Source of the DNA: Candidatus Coatesiibacteriota bacterium
Lineage (GTDB): Bacteria; RBG-13-66-14; B26-G2
Assembly: GCA_003647715.1 (NCBI GenBank)
Contig: QMNJ01000003.1
Span: 1 to 32,438 of the forward strand
Direction of reading: 5' to 3'
DNA length: 32,438 nucleotides
The stretch's first letter is position 1; every line of letters begins with the position of its first letter. The notes under the pieces were generated by a model. That model was given only the letters and a program-made list of their open reading frames with translations, searched no databases and was not told the origin of the DNA. Both the position numbers and the translations under genes were made by a program. Positions 6,272 to 17,807 of the stretch are shown in pieces.

Positions 6272-6289
6272 AAATAGGAGGGATTCATT

Positions 6290-9256
6290 ATGTTTGGAAA
6301 GAAAGGGAAGATCTCGCCCGATGAGTTCGCCGACTTCCTTAATCAGTATTTTGTGGACTACTCTAACCTCCTGGAGAAGGGAGAGAACATAAGAAGCACC
6401 CTGGAGAAACAGATTACAAAAGGAAGTGAACTGGAAGAGAAGATAAACCGTCTTGAGAAAAGCGTCGCCGATAGCGAAGCAAGGATAAACTCAACCACCT
6501 CCAATGCAGAAAGCAGAATGAACTTCATCACCAGCAGGATAGACGAGGTATCCACAATTAAAACCGAATTAGAGCAATTGAAGAGAATCGCAGATGAAAT
6601 CAAGAACAAGGTTGATACATCTTTAGAGAAAGACCCGACCGAGAAGATTGAGCGAGCCAACGCCATACTTGACGACCTATCAGCCCGAGCGGTAATCATT
6701 GAAGAGCGTTATAAGGACATTGAAGAGAAGAGCAAGCGTTTTGAGGAAGTTCTGAACAGAGCCGATGACCTTACAGAAAGAGTAAACAATCTAACCCTGA
6801 CGCTTGACAACCTTAATTCCAAGTCGTCCCAGATTGAGAGCAAGACCACCACTTACGAAGATATCATTAAGCGTATCAGTTCGGACATAGAGCGAGTCAA
6901 CCAGGCGGTAGTGAAGACCGATGTCATTGAGGAGCGACTGGACAGCATTCTCAAGGATGTTAACAATGTTAAATCCCTTATTGACGAACTTCAGAGCGAT
7001 GCAAAAGATACCCGGACCTCAATGGACAAGGTGGAGGAAAAATTTGACCAGCTAAATAGAACAGCAGATACACTTCAGACAAGATTCAAGGATGACTTGA
7101 AGGATATTGAAACGAGGGTTTCAAATGCTTCCACAAGCATCTCTGAGCTGGAGAGCAGATTGAGGGACTTTGAGAGCGTAAAAGATGATATAAGCACCTT
7201 AACTAACCGACTGAGCAACATTGAGAACAGCGTGAACGATGCCTTTGATGTATTATCAAGGTTCAAAGAGGTGGAGGATAAATTAAATACTGTTGAGGGC
7301 AAACTGAACACTCTAAAGAATACATCAGATGAACTTACGGGAAAGACCGAGGAGGCGCAGAGGTCAGTGAGCAGTATATCTGAGAACCTCAACATCTATG
7401 GTCAACAGATTGAAACCTTTACTGGGCAGATAAAGGAGATAGAGAACAATATAAAATCAATTGATGAGAAGGTTGACAAATGGGTTCAGGCGAGAGACCT
7501 CTTTGAGGGCGTGGAGGATACTCTCATTGAACTACGGAAGATGAAGGGAGAAGTAGAGGCGTTCTACAACAGCATGCAGGACTACAAGACCATCTTTGAA
7601 AAGGTTCAAGATGAACATAGCCGGCTGAATGTTCAGATATGGGAGATTGAGAAGAAACTGACCGACATAGACGACAAGATTGTTAGCATCAATGAACTTG
7701 AAACGAAGATAAGGATGCTGGAGGAGAAGCGAGAGAAGCTAACAAGTGATATGAAAGTTCTTGAAGTATGGGAGTCCCGCTTAAAGGATGCCAGCAACTA
7801 CTCTGATGAAGTTGATGACCAGATGAAGAAGATTGAGAGAGGAATAAACCAACTAACCTCAAAGATAGAGTTCATTAGCTCTACCTCCGATGACATAACA
7901 CAATTGAAGGAGAAGGTGGATAGCATCATAAAGGAAAGAGATGAACTGCTTTCCACTGGAGACGACCTCAAGTCGCTTAAGAGCGAGATGGATTCAATTA
8001 TCAACAGATTAGAGCAATACACCCACAAGTTCCCCGAACTTGAGATGCAACAGAAGGGACTGGAAGCCAATCTATTTAATATTGAACAGCGTCTTGATGC
8101 GATAGGTCAGGCAGTGATAAGCGAGAGGGAATTTAACGAGAAATACAATGAGATTATGAACAAGCACTCAGAGCTTGCCAATGTCAAATCGCAGATTGAT
8201 GACTTATCCACTAAACTTGAGAATGTGAGGGACTACAGTGCTTTGTATCAGGAGGTTGAGAGCAGGATAAAACAGTTTAGTGCCGAAAAAGCTCATTTTG
8301 AAAAGTCGGTTGCTGACCTCCATTCATCATTTAGAGCCATAGAAGACGACTTCTCAAGAAAGGTGGCCGATTTCAACCGCGAGAAAACCCTGCTTGAAGA
8401 GAAGGAGCGAGATATTAGGTTCATCCGCAACAATGTTGACAACCTCTACAATCGCCTAAACGAGTTATCAGACCTCCGTGCAAAACTTGACAGAGACATA
8501 AACACCTTGAAGGACAAAGAACAAGACATACTCAGAATAAAAAGTGAAGTAGCGGAGATTGAGAAGATGGAGGCGGACACCAGAGCTATGATGGATACTC
8601 TGGTCAAAACCCGTTCAGAGATAAGTGCTTTTGAGAACGAACTTAAAAATATAAGAACCCATCAGGAGCAGGTAGAATCCACATCCAAGCAGATATCCCA
8701 GATGCTTGACGATGAGCATATTAGGATGAATGAGATGGTATCATTGAGGGATAGTTTCATAACCCTAAGAGCGGAAGTAGAGGAGAAACTAAATGAGCTT
8801 AAGGCAGACAGAAAGGTTCTGGAAGACAGCATTGAAAGGTCTAAGAAAGAAGTAAGTGCACTAATCAGGGAACTTGACGAGAAGAAGGACATTCTGGTGA
8901 CATTGAGAGACAGATTTGACTCCATCAACATGATTATGGATGATATCGACTCACGAACTGAGGAATTAAACGCCAACAGGGATGACCTTGAGAAGATGGA
9001 GAAAGAGATCAACCAGTTGACCACCAGGATGAAAGAAATAACCGAAGATGCAAGCAATATCAACCGGATGGAGAAGGATTTACACAGGATTGAGGAGAAG
9101 ATGAATGAATTGGTGGAGTTGAGGTCAAAGATACTCTCCGAATTAGACGAACTGAGAGCCAAAGAGGCAATAATCTCTGATTTGAACCACAGGATATTGA
9201 ACCTTGAGTCAAAGATGAGGTCATACAAATCTGAGTCAAGAGAGACAGAGGAGTAA
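6290..9256 (+). CDS. Giant coiled-coil protein (988 aa)
   Basis: Strong RBS (aggaggg); near-continuous heptad-like charged/Leu/Ile sequence; 3 Pro and no Cys in 988 aa by visual count; no signal peptide. Confidence 0.92.
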   Translation: MFGKKGKISPDEFADFLNQYFVDYSNLLEKGENIRSTLEKQITKGSELEEKINRLEKSVADSEARINSTTSNAESRMNFITSRIDEVSTIKTELEQLKRIADEIKNKVDTSLEKDPTEKIERANAILDDLSARAVIIEERYKDIEEKSKRFEEVLNRADDLTERVNNLTLTLDNLNSKSSQIESKTTTYEDIIKRISSDIERVNQAVVKTDVIEERLDSILKDVNNVKSLIDELQSDAKDTRTSMDKVEEKFDQLNRTADTLQTRFKDDLKDIETRVSNASTSISELESRLRDFESVKDDISTLTNRLSNIENSVNDAFDVLSRFKEVEDKLNTVEGKLNTLKNTSDELTGKTEEAQRSVSSISENLNIYGQQIETFTGQIKEIENNIKSIDEKVDKWVQARDLFEGVEDTLIELRKMKGEVEAFYNSMQDYKTIFEKVQDEHSRLNVQIWEIEKKLTDIDDKIVSINELETKIRMLEEKREKLTSDMKVLEVWESRLKDASNYSDEVDDQMKKIERGINQLTSKIEFISSTSDDITQLKEKVDSIIKERDELLSTGDDLKSLKSEMDSIINRLEQYTHKFPELEMQQKGLEANLFNIEQRLDAIGQAVISEREFNEKYNEIMNKHSELANVKSQIDDLSTKLENVRDYSALYQEVESRIKQFSAEKAHFEKSVADLHSSFRAIEDDFSRKVADFNREKTLLEEKERDIRFIRNNVDNLYNRLNELSDLRAKLDRDINTLKDKEQDILRIKSEVAEIEKMEADTRAMMDTLVKTRSEISAFENELKNIRTHQEQVESTSKQISQMLDDEHIRMNEMVSLRDSFITLRAEVEEKLNELKADRKVLEDSIERSKKEVSALIRELDEKKDILVTLRDRFDSINMIMDDIDSRTEELNANRDDLEKMEKEINQLTTRMKEITEDASNINRMEKDLHRIEEKMNELVELRSKILSELDELRAKEAIISDLNHRILNLESKMRSYKSESRETEE

Positions 9257-9316
9257 TCAACTTCATATATTGTTGAGATACTAATAGTTAATCAACTGCT
9301 TTAGAAGGAAGGTTTA

Positions 9317-10096
9317 ATGGCAAGGGTTATCTCCATTGCCTGTCAGAAGGGTGGAGTAGGAAAGACGACGACTGCTCTAAATCTTGGAATATCCTTGAAT
9401 ATTCTTGGTAAAAAGGTACTACTTATTGACCTTGACCCACAGGGATGTCTTGGGATTGCCTTTGATATGGACCAGGACTCACTATCACGCGGAATATTTG
9501 AGATGGTAGTCAAGACCTGTGAACCAAAGGATGTGATACATAAGACCGGCATAAAATCACTTCATATTATCGCTAACAATGTCTGGTCAAATCCTGCAGG
9601 TGAGGCGATAAAGAAAGCAATGAGCAATCTACGAGTTCTAAAAAAAGCGGTAAATTCTCTGAGATGTGACTATGATTATATTATAATGGATTGTCCCCCT
9701 TCTATATTTGAGAACACCATAGCCGCAATATACTCATCCGACTCCGTCCTTATTCCTGTCCAGAGCGATTACTATGTGTTTATGGTGTTAGACCAGTTTC
9801 TTCAAACAATTTGTACCATAAAGAAAAGCATCAACCGTGACCTTGAAATTGAGGGACTACTACTCACAATGTTTGATAGTCGCCTTAAGTCATCCAGGGA
9901 GATACTTAAACTCTCATGGGAGCGATATGGTTCTCTGGTATTCAAAACAATAATTCCCAGGTCAACGGAGATAGCCCAGGTGATATATTCAAGAAAGCCA
10001 ATAAGTATATATCTCCCCAAACCATCAAGGGGAGCACTTGCATATCTGTCACTGGCAAGAGAACTGATACAGAAGCAACAGAAAGATAGAAGATGA
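9317..10096 (+). CDS. ParA/Soj family ATPase (orphan)
   Basis: 259 aa; deviant Walker A CQKGGVGKTTTALNLG, LLIDLDPQG, YIIMDCPPS; aaggaagg RBS; no parB in the window. Confidence 0.95.
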   Translation: MARVISIACQKGGVGKTTTALNLGISLNILGKKVLLIDLDPQGCLGIAFDMDQDSLSRGIFEMVVKTCEPKDVIHKTGIKSLHIIANNVWSNPAGEAIKKAMSNLRVLKKAVNSLRCDYDYIIMDCPPSIFENTIAAIYSSDSVLIPVQSDYYVFMVLDQFLQTICTIKKSINRDLEIEGLLLTMFDSRLKSSREILKLSWERYGSLVFKTIIPRSTEIAQVIYSRKPISIYLPKPSRGALAYLSLARELIQKQQKDRR

Positions 10097-14217: not shown

Positions 14218-14917
14218 TATTGCTTTGGCTCTACTGCTGGTAACCCTATCTTGTCAGGGAACCACGAAGATAGTGATACCCATATCAGAGGAACCGATTA
14301 TTAAAGCAGAAGAAGGTAAGACCATCGCCATTATCCCCTTCACCGGTGATGATTACGATATTGATGCACTTAAGAAGGCATACACAGAGATATCAAAAGC
14401 ATTAGAGGTGAAGACCAACCTTGTAGTAATAGATAGAGATGAGGTGGAGAAGGAGTTAAAGTCAGAATCAATGAAGGAACTTAAACCGGGCACGAAACAA
14501 TATGGTTATGTTCTGGGCAAACTTCTGAGATGCGACTATGTTATCTATGGTGAACTCACCTTCTTCTCCGAGAGATATAGCGAACAGGGCTATGCACCAA
14601 ACGAAAGATACACAGCAGACCAACCATACGCACCGGAACTCTTGTTCGGACCAAGATATTCCATGTATGACTATGATATTGAAGTTAAATATACTCTGAG
14701 AATAAAACTTACCTGTATAAACATAAAAGAAGCAAAGGAGGTCTTCCACGAAGAGTTTGAAAACTCAATAAACCAATTATACAGCCCCCAAGAGCTTCCA
14801 ATAGACCTTCACAAGCTCTATCAGATATACTCATCACTATTATATAACATAGGTGATGAATTCAGAGAAAAACTCACCCCACATAATATCACTGGAAAGA
14901 GGTACGCCTTTGATTAA
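14189..14917 (+). CDS. Putative lipoprotein with CsgG/FlgO-like N-terminal fold
   Basis: 242 aa; lipoprotein-like LLLVTLSCQG; KTIAIIPFTGDD...LVVIDRDEVEKEL...LLRCDYVIYGELTF pattern; overlaps previous ORF by 29 nt. Confidence 0.6.
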   Translation: MHIKLRLIISIALALLLVTLSCQGTTKIVIPISEEPIIKAEEGKTIAIIPFTGDDYDIDALKKAYTEISKALEVKTNLVVIDRDEVEKELKSESMKELKPGTKQYGYVLGKLLRCDYVIYGELTFFSERYSEQGYAPNERYTADQPYAPELLFGPRYSMYDYDIEVKYTLRIKLTCINIKEAKEVFHEEFENSINQLYSPQELPIDLHKLYQIYSSLLYNIGDEFREKLTPHNITGKRYAFD

Positions 14918-17807
14918 AGGAAACTATACTTCTTCTGGATTTTCATTCATTCTAACAATTAATCTCGCTCTTCTTATGCTAATGGTTATAAATCCTTCTC
15001 ACTGCCTTGCAAGATACAAGGTGAATGATTACCCTTTCAACTGGAATAAATACACAACTGAACACTTCAATATCTATTTTTACGAAGAAGAGGGTTTCCT
15101 CCTTGATTATACAATAGAGGTTTCAGAGACAGCATATCAGAAGATTGCGAGAATTATTGACTTCTATCCGTCTAACAAGATTCCGGTTATAGTATATAAA
15201 TCACACCAGGAGTTTGAGCAAACCAATATCGTAGATATGCCTCTTGGAGAGGGTGTTGGAGGATTTGCAGAGATATTCCATAAGAGGGTGGTGGTTCCCT
15301 TTGATGGCAACATAGAACAATATACCAAGACCCTCATACACGAGATTACCCATGTCTTCACCTTTGAGATGTATTTTGGAGGTATGGGCAGTATATTCTC
15401 GGGTTCAATTATATATCCTGCTGAGTGGTTTATGGAGGGTCTCCCCGAGTTCATCGCCGACGACTGGACACCGGAGGGAGTTCAGGTATTAAGAGATGCT
15501 GTTCTCTCTGGCAAACTCCACAACCTGCGTGACTTAGATGATTTTGACCGCATACCATATAATGAAGTATATCTAGCATACAAAGAAGGTCAGTCCGCAG
15601 TTGAATACCTTGTGGATGAATATGGATTAGATTCGCTCACCGAGTTTGTTCATCAGATAAAGAGGACAGCATCAAGAGATGTTGATAAGGCACTCAAGAA
15701 ATCTATTGGTGTATCCCTCGATGAGTTCAATGAGGACTGGCAGGTATATCTAAAGCGGAAGTTCCTACCAGAGGTCAAGAGAAAAGAGCGACTGAAGGAA
15801 TATGGTGAACGATTGACCCCCTATGAGGAGATATATGATGGTAAATCCTACTTCGTCCCACAATTTACACCTTCGGGTGAACTAATAGTGGCTTTGAGTA
15901 ATCGTGGCAGATTCATTGACGCCTACCTGGTGAAGGTCAAGGACGGAGAGGTCATTGAGAACATAACCAAGGGGTTATCATACAGTTTATTTGACTATAT
16001 CTCACCTATGGACAATTCAATATCTATCTCTGAAGACGGCAACCTACTCACCTTTGTCGCCAGAAAGGGCACCAGAGACCGTCTTTATATTCTTGACATT
16101 GTATTCAAGAAAATTGTGGATGAATACGAACTCCCACTTGACGACATCTCATCCCCTTCATTTTCACCCGACGGCAATCATATCGCTCTGGCAGGTCTAA
16201 AAGATGGAGCCAAGAATATATATGTATTCAATATTAAATCAAATGAGCTCAAACGAATCACCAATATATCAGGTGAGGCAGGAAACCCAAAATGGTCTCC
16301 CGATGGCTCTAAAATCGTCTTCTCTGCTGAAACCACCACCGGGGAACACATCTTTGAGGTTGAAGTTAAAACAGGTAACATTGTTCAATTAACCTTTGGT
16401 GATTGGAACGATAGGTCGCCAGAGTTCTCACCTGACGGCAAAGAAATTATTTTTGTATCCGATAGGGGCGATTCCGTGATGGATATATATGTCTATAACA
16501 TTGAAAGTAAGATGTCCAGAAGAGTATCAAACCTATGGGTCGGCGCTGATAATCCAACCTTCAGTCCATCAGGAGATATGATTGCCTTCACTGGTATGGA
16601 GGATGGTGTATATCAGGTCTGCACAAAACGGCTCCCCCTACCCAACTACGGAGAGATATATGAAGAGAACCCCACTGGTGATGAGGAGGAATATGTTGTG
16701 CTTGAGACAGATGAGGAGACCTTTGAACATACAGAGAAATATGGAGTTGACATGGTTCTTGACTACGCTACCAGCAGTTTAGAATACACTACTGGCGGTG
16801 TTTTCAGAAACTATACAGAGATTGCCTTCTCAGATATCCTGGGCAATCATCGCTTTGATATCCTCTTTGACCTGACCAGCGTCTCAAGCATTGAAGATGT
16901 GGATGCAGGATTTCTCTACCACAATCTTGAACACCGCACTGATATGGGTCTCCTGGTCCAATCGTGGCGTGATTACTACGGTGGAACCAGACCAAAATAC
17001 TACTGGGAGCGTCTATCAGGGGGGGAGGCGCTGTTCTCGTATCCAATCACAACTGTGAATGCCTTCATGATAAACCCATTTTTCTATCATCGGAAACGGG
17101 ACATTTATGAAGAGAGACAGGGAACCACTGTGATGGTTCAAGAAGTGGAAAACAACCTCTGTGGTGTTGAATTAATGTTCATCAGGGACTCACGACTATG
17201 GGGCTACTATAATCCCACCAGCGGGGGCTATAATGCCTTCATCTTTGAACAAACCATACCCCTCCCCAAAACCAAAAGCGACTTACTATACACCAATCTT
17301 ATAATTGACCAGAGAAAGTATATTTATATGTCGCTAAGAAATAGTTTGGCACTCAGATTCGTCGGAGGAACTTCATTTGGCAGGGACCCGCAGAAATTCT
17401 TTGTAGGTGGTGGGTTCAGCATAAGGGGCTATCCATACTATTCATTCTACGGCACCAAGTTCTTCTATGCCACCGCAGAGCTCAGGTTTCCAATAATTGA
17501 TGCAATCTTCACCAGCATCCCTGAGTTCATAATAGGTGGTTTCAGAGGGGTATTATTCATAGATGCGGGAAGTGCCTGGTCAGGTCACAATGTAGAGTGG
17601 GATACAGGTAAGGGTGGTGACAAGTTCAGACCCTGGACAACTGTTGACGGCTTCCACCTACATCACATAAAAGCATCAATCGGGTTTGGTCTGAGATGGG
17701 CATTGTTCAGCTCGTTTGACCTGCGCCTTGACTGGGCATTTCCAACCGACCTGTCGTCAATCCATACTCCACCCTACATACATTTTTCACTCGGACCCTC
17801 ATTCTAA
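14910..17807 (+). CDS. Gluzincin-like peptidase / TolB-type beta-propeller / Omp85-like barrel fusion
   Basis: Proposed TTG start at 14910 behind aaagagg; signal peptide; TLIHEITHVF (HExxH) with downstream EWFMEGLPEFIADDW; repeated PD40 blades (FSPDGNHIALAG, WSPDGSKIVFSA, FSPDGKEIIFVSDRG, FSPSGDMIAFTG); C-terminal GGGFSIRGYPYYSF and barrel strands ending in Phe. Confidence 0.88.
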   Translation: MIKGNYTSSGFSFILTINLALLMLMVINPSHCLARYKVNDYPFNWNKYTTEHFNIYFYEEEGFLLDYTIEVSETAYQKIARIIDFYPSNKIPVIVYKSHQEFEQTNIVDMPLGEGVGGFAEIFHKRVVVPFDGNIEQYTKTLIHEITHVFTFEMYFGGMGSIFSGSIIYPAEWFMEGLPEFIADDWTPEGVQVLRDAVLSGKLHNLRDLDDFDRIPYNEVYLAYKEGQSAVEYLVDEYGLDSLTEFVHQIKRTASRDVDKALKKSIGVSLDEFNEDWQVYLKRKFLPEVKRKERLKEYGERLTPYEEIYDGKSYFVPQFTPSGELIVALSNRGRFIDAYLVKVKDGEVIENITKGLSYSLFDYISPMDNSISISEDGNLLTFVARKGTRDRLYILDIVFKKIVDEYELPLDDISSPSFSPDGNHIALAGLKDGAKNIYVFNIKSNELKRITNISGEAGNPKWSPDGSKIVFSAETTTGEHIFEVEVKTGNIVQLTFGDWNDRSPEFSPDGKEIIFVSDRGDSVMDIYVYNIESKMSRRVSNLWVGADNPTFSPSGDMIAFTGMEDGVYQVCTKRLPLPNYGEIYEENPTGDEEEYVVLETDEETFEHTEKYGVDMVLDYATSSLEYTTGGVFRNYTEIAFSDILGNHRFDILFDLTSVSSIEDVDAGFLYHNLEHRTDMGLLVQSWRDYYGGTRPKYYWERLSGGEALFSYPITTVNAFMINPFFYHRKRDIYEERQGTTVMVQEVENNLCGVELMFIRDSRLWGYYNPTSGGYNAFIFEQTIPLPKTKSDLLYTNLIIDQRKYIYMSLRNSLALRFVGGTSFGRDPQKFFVGGGFSIRGYPYYSFYGTKFFYATAELRFPIIDAIFTSIPEFIIGGFRGVLFIDAGSAWSGHNVEWDTGKGGDKFRPWTTVDGFHLHHIKASIGFGLRWALFSSFDLRLDWAFPTDLSSIHTPPYIHFSLGPSF

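Follow-up and report, generated by a model that had tools for sequence, protein, structure and literature searches.

In Myxococcus, the division site is positioned by the PomX/PomZ system. PomX activates its ATPase via a short basic N-terminus, as do ParB, MinE, and ParG (PMC7993993), and short positively charged N-termini have been proposed for the partners of ParA/MinD ATPases in general, while orphan ParA ATPases have partners of such diversity that a good number remain to be identified (PMC10241942). Long coiled coils can also meet a ParA: Scy of Streptomyces, a 1326-aa coil with a repeat of 51 residues in 14 turns (3.64 residues), uses a long non-canonical coil to bind ParA, whose polymerisation it inhibits (PMC3718342), and KfrA coils, which form filaments, have both IncC (ParA) and KorB (ParB) as interaction partners (PMC7821693). 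The arginines with which the ParA-type ATPase Soj binds DNA are R189 and R218 (PMC3778016).

The locus compared here with these systems lies in a window of 32,438 nucleotides (the whole stretch of DNA that was analyzed, contig C3 of a 1.6 Mb draft genome), in which the gene of a very long coiled coil is directly followed by that of a ParA ATPase (Table 1). A sequence-only reading had described the first as a long cytoplasmic coiled coil, and both its composition (3 Pro, 0 Cys, net charge -62) and its hydropathy agree with this, as no transmembrane segment or signal peptide was indicated in the coil (top 19-residue hydropathy 0.51). The same-strand layout, the 60-bp gap, and the good ribosome-binding sites of both genes (AGGAGG precedes the ATG of the coil ORF) were borne out by the ORF coordinates. 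The heptad-type hydrophobic signal of the coil exceeds that of sequences shuffled from its own residues by 27 standard deviations, and the rod would be about 145–147 nm long, assuming one continuous helix; the structure prediction had low confidence (mean pLDDT 56) and was taken solely as indicating a helical protein.

Table 1. Features of the coil-ParA locus, numbered by their position in the window
Feature	Position	Strand	Remarks
Ribosome-binding site of the coil gene, AGGAGGG	6275..6281 (approximate span)	+	
Coil ORF	6290..9256	+	988 aa, ATG start, seven-genome orthologue family, period 3.461
Basic tip, MFGKKGKIS	6290..6316	+	Gly3-Lys4-Lys5 is the sole invariant run in the family
Core motif, residues 425-476	7562..7717	+	Leu446 and Trp451 invariant across phyla
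Second conserved segment, residues 869-898, LVTLRDRFDSINMIMDDIDSRTEELNANRD	8894..8983	+	Best-conserved 30-residue window between four families
Ribosome-binding site of parA, AGAAGGAAGG, in the 60-bp spacer	9303..9312 (approximate span)	+	
Soj-type ParA ATPase	9317..10096	+	KGGVGKTT, Cys44, WSN 90-92, Arg189 kept, Glu at the Arg218 position

The ParA (259 aa, starting 60 bp downstream of the coil gene) falls in Pfam AAA_31 at 9e-47, matches a solved ParA homologue at 5.8e-49, and carries the Walker A, A', and B motifs of the ParA/MinD family as KGGVGKTT (with the signature lysine), LIDLDPQG, and IIMDCPPS, which is in line with the ParA/Soj ATPase with a deviant Walker A motif named in the sequence-only reading. 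When it was used as a query against 61 genomes, the top matches beyond the window genome (41–46% identity) were found in six other genomes of the same order/class, and the gene just before ParA encoded in each of these a coiled coil of 952–1190 aa on the same strand, a range that also spans the orthologous coils of all seven class genomes. The adjacency is thus conserved among the relatives in every one of the seven class genomes, which belong to four families, with the same order and strand and a short spacer; as four of the seven fall in one genus, they amount to about four independent lineages. The flanking genes of the pair differ among the window, G001, and G005, but the window has two downstream genes in common with members of the four-genome genus, and G001 has one gene in common with this genus, so shared inheritance of gene order may account for some of the adjacency. 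The window also encodes a 984-aa protein (14853-17807, + strand) in which a peptidase-MA domain is combined with PD40 propeller repeats and an Omp85-like barrel; in three class genomes, related proteins are encoded close to the pair.

A tree of 68 ParAs places the six paired ParAs of full length in one clade (support 87/88), to which the parB-linked ParAs of these genomes do not belong; the seventh paired ParA, from G006 (L092, 9327-10109, + strand), is broken by an N run in its last third and is comparable only to about residue 206. The signature of the clade consists of Cys44, WSN at 90-92, Asn104, and Phe161. Its members were found neither in seven sister-class genomes nor in 372 sampled genomes outside the phylum: with a profile of the clade, the paired ParAs scored 370–493 bits and the next best match 307, no long coil was seen beside ParA at the fetched loci of these next-best matches, and a contig scan with a single ParA query returned remote ParAs only. 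Next to the paired clade, the tree places a second ParA of G001 (L106, G001:C14, 7550-9814, + strand), which is encoded directly 3' of a 452-aa helical protein without a Pfam/NCBIfam match and keeps the arginine at the R218 position.

The positions equivalent to the two DNA-binding arginines were mapped with what we take to be the Soj sequence, which agreed at both arginines. R189 is kept in 6/6 paired ParAs, while the R218 position is occupied by E, A, A, A, A, and T, compared with a basic residue in 48 of 52 other ParAs. To judge from these replacements, the paired ParA could perhaps no longer ride DNA; two further ParAs (L121 and L123) have alanine there, yet parB adjoins each, so the replacement is not diagnostic and no proof of a new substrate.

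As the sequence-only reading had it, no parB or parS-like partner lies nearby: the parS consensus had 0 matches in the window at ≤ 3 mismatches, and no ParB-like domain was found among its main ORFs, so the arrangement of a ParABS set, with parB beside parA and parS near, is not the one seen here. An ordinary parA and parB lie on contig C105 of the same genome, followed by genes resembling a peptidase-type protein and a bactofilin (both named by eye), and the ParA of C105 falls in another clade than the paired ParA.

Across the seven coils, only 20 of the 988 residues of the window's copy are invariant, and the only three consecutive invariant columns are GKK, residues 3-5 (7/7 coils, shuffle P 0.007). 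The first nine residues of the window coil have a charge of +3 and those of the other six coils +1 to +3. MFGKKGK is a short, conserved, positively charged N-terminal peptide, as expected of an ATPase activator, and resembles the basic N-terminal activating peptides of PomX, ParB, and MinE, with the caveat that it is short and has two invariant lysines only.

The hydrophobic seam of the coil follows a single coherent period over the full length, 3.460–3.464 residues in 7/7 coils, a value that, by simple arithmetic, would result from inserting three residues about once every 45; when insertions were placed at random in simulated coils, the coherence observed here was hardly ever reached. The SMC arms of the same genome gave 3.505–3.512, as expected for heptads, and the period lies on the opposite side of 3.5 from the 3.64 of Scy/FilP, whose 51-residue repeat the coil does not share, and from most of SpiroCoCo. 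Judged by this seam, the rod is probably overwound, with an unusual period.

The sequence-only reading recognized no described family for the coil and considered an SMC-like match as a possible objection. An SMC is ruled out, since the scores were far below the curated cut-offs for heads and hinge and a complete SMC is encoded separately in the same genome; matches to models of SMC, Rad50, tropomyosin, EzrA, and similar proteins were read as coiled-coil cross-matches. No DNA-binding domain was recognized in the coil by the Pfam/NCBIfam scans, nor was a PomX model among its matches in these model scans. The closest candidate was SpiroCoCo (NF047515): it is the top NCBIfam match of the window coil, with 145.8 bits, and of each of the four scanned relatives, and all five formally pass the 125-bit cut-off of SpiroCoCo_C. 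The model matches at several places along the length, however, and probably reads a repeating pattern (the genome's own SMC does not match it), and the SpiroCoCo N-terminal domain model scored 66.8 bits, below its 75. The SpiroCoCo proteins examined (G030/G177) have a hydrophobic anchor at the N-terminus, which the coil lacks, a main period of 3.63–3.64, and no ParA nearby, and membership was rejected on N-terminus and architecture despite the C-terminal score. Two of them (L167, 239-4231, + strand; L168, 4735-8664, + strand) pass from a period of 3.63 in mid-protein to 3.455 in the last 300 residues, the latter like the coil, and the gene after them resembles serS.

A profile of the coil also matched coils in four genomes outside the phylum (G277, G076, G347, and G150) and in one of the same phylum (G008). 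The similarity centers on the core motif. With the four proteins from outside the phylum, three class members share 42–56% of its residues, G001 35–38%, and the window's own copy 17–27%; G008 shares 21–35%, and the background is 15 ± 6%. Leu446 and Trp451 are invariant in 10/10 aligned coils. The profile-profile comparison with these homologues gave 2e-42, a value inflated by coil composition, and four of them have a period of 3.455–3.456. GKK is absent in 5/5, roughly the first 200 residues are missing in three of the five, and the deviant Walker A motif is absent from the 9–17 kb fetched around each. Tip and neighboring ParA are thus missing together elsewhere and co-occur, in one class, on a scaffold found more widely, and as the seven positives are mutually related, they are better counted as one event than as seven. 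The core motif was not found in the plasmid search, and the literature searched contained no mention of it or of the word SpiroCoCo. In two genomes, the ParA-less homologue (L193, 7219-9510, - strand; L194, 5450-7747, - strand) lies directly upstream of a YjeF-like gene (an NAD(P)HX repair enzyme, named by eye). Three points are new relative to the sequence-only reading: the GKK tip, the existence of homologues without ParA in other phyla, and the period of 3.46 residues.

Among the described systems, PomX/PomZ shares with this locus a ParA-type ATPase, a partner other than ParB (an activator in PomX, a putative one in the coil), and a basic N-terminal peptide, and PomX has a self-assembling C-terminal domain (PMC7993993), but its N-domain is rich in Ala and Pro and a second activator, PomY, takes part, whereas here 950–1190 aa of nearly pure coil are found. 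The Scy-ParA pair of the Streptomyces tip-organizing center is similar in its very long coil with a regular non-heptad period and in the contact with ParA, which for the coil is putative, although Scy uses the chromosomal ParA and the coil sits beside a dedicated one. McdA/McdB and PpfA/TlpT likewise combine a ParA with a dedicated adaptor with a basic N-terminus, but these adaptors differ from the coil, and neither shell-protein genes nor chemoreceptors track with the pair. Shell proteins (PF00936) were rejected as cargo: of the seven class genomes, six have them, but so do four genomes of the sister class that lack the pair, and no match was found in G005 (89% complete), which has the pair; in G000, microcompartment-type shell-protein genes (three PF00936 matches) lie on C29 (8575-12162, - strand), a contig without an AAA_31 match of this genome. 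Chemoreceptors, of which none were found in G000, G001, and G005, were rejected as well. Division-site placement by the pair is possible: FtsZ is encoded in 7/7 class genomes (as two fragments in the window's own genome), and a search of 14 phylum genomes found MinC in none of them, which says nothing on a replacement of MinC.

We consider it fairly probable that coil and ParA form one module, in which ParA, fired via the GKK tip, would position the scaffold. The constant pairing in the class and the tip's likeness to ParA activators suggest what is probably a new, self-contained system that would place a scaffold within the cell and would most likely work as PomX/PomZ or Scy-ParA do, a likeness of design. 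The earlier proposal that the coil is the cognate adaptor or scaffold of ParA is partly supported and survives the three tests that bear on it (adjacency in the relatives, the clade of the parB-linked ParA, and the match to known families), while interaction and ATPase stimulation are what we infer. A polarity scaffold in the manner of Scy or TipN, in which the rod binds ParA and recruits, stores, or depolymerises it at a pole while GKK serves, e.g., for membrane or DNA contact, seems rather unlikely to us: Scy does bind ParA through a long non-canonical coil and inhibit its polymerisation (PMC3718342), and the replacement of Arg218 in each of the six paired ParAs that could be read there would fit less reliance on DNA, but Scy acts on the chromosomal ParA and not on an adjacent dedicated one, its period is 3.64 against 3.46, and GKK co-occurs with ParA.

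There is a still smaller chance that the coil is structural, giving shape to the cell or spacing its envelope, and that the neighboring ParA is co-transcribed but no direct partner. The ParA-less homologues of other phyla, two of them next to the YjeF-like gene, speak for this, but the immediate pairing persists in four families though most other flanking genes differ, the ParA clade was found only with the coil, and the tip only with ParA. Hardly probable at all is a second chromosome or plasmid segregation set with the coil replacing ParB, as KfrA-type coils assist plasmid ParA/ParB; the paired ParA is Soj-type and KfrA coils contact both IncC and KorB (PMC7821693), but a DNA-binding head and a ParB partner, both features of KfrA, were not seen for the coil, no parS lies in the window, and the genome already has an ordinary parAB.

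Under the preferred reading of a ParA-positioned scaffold, the two genes would be transcribed together and the coil would dimerise into a long overwound rod, and rods would probably assemble into a higher-order scaffold. The basic tip would contact the ATP-bound dimer of its own ParA and trigger ATP hydrolysis and release, and repeated cycles would move, space, or anchor the scaffold, plus anything held by it, relative to the surface bound by ParA, probably the nucleoid, perhaps more weakly than usual. A more doubtful, tentative version would start from an older rod scaffold of several phyla, turned into ParA cargo in one class by the gain of the tip and of a private ParA; this ParA would lack some of the surface normally used to bind DNA and so might travel on the rod or along it, and not on the nucleoid only. 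Because the same scaffold occurs with and without the tip and ParA, it becomes directly testable whether a scaffold can be made positionable by grafting an activating peptide onto it, and the homologues suggest that several phyla share an unnamed family of very long coils that are tightly overwound.
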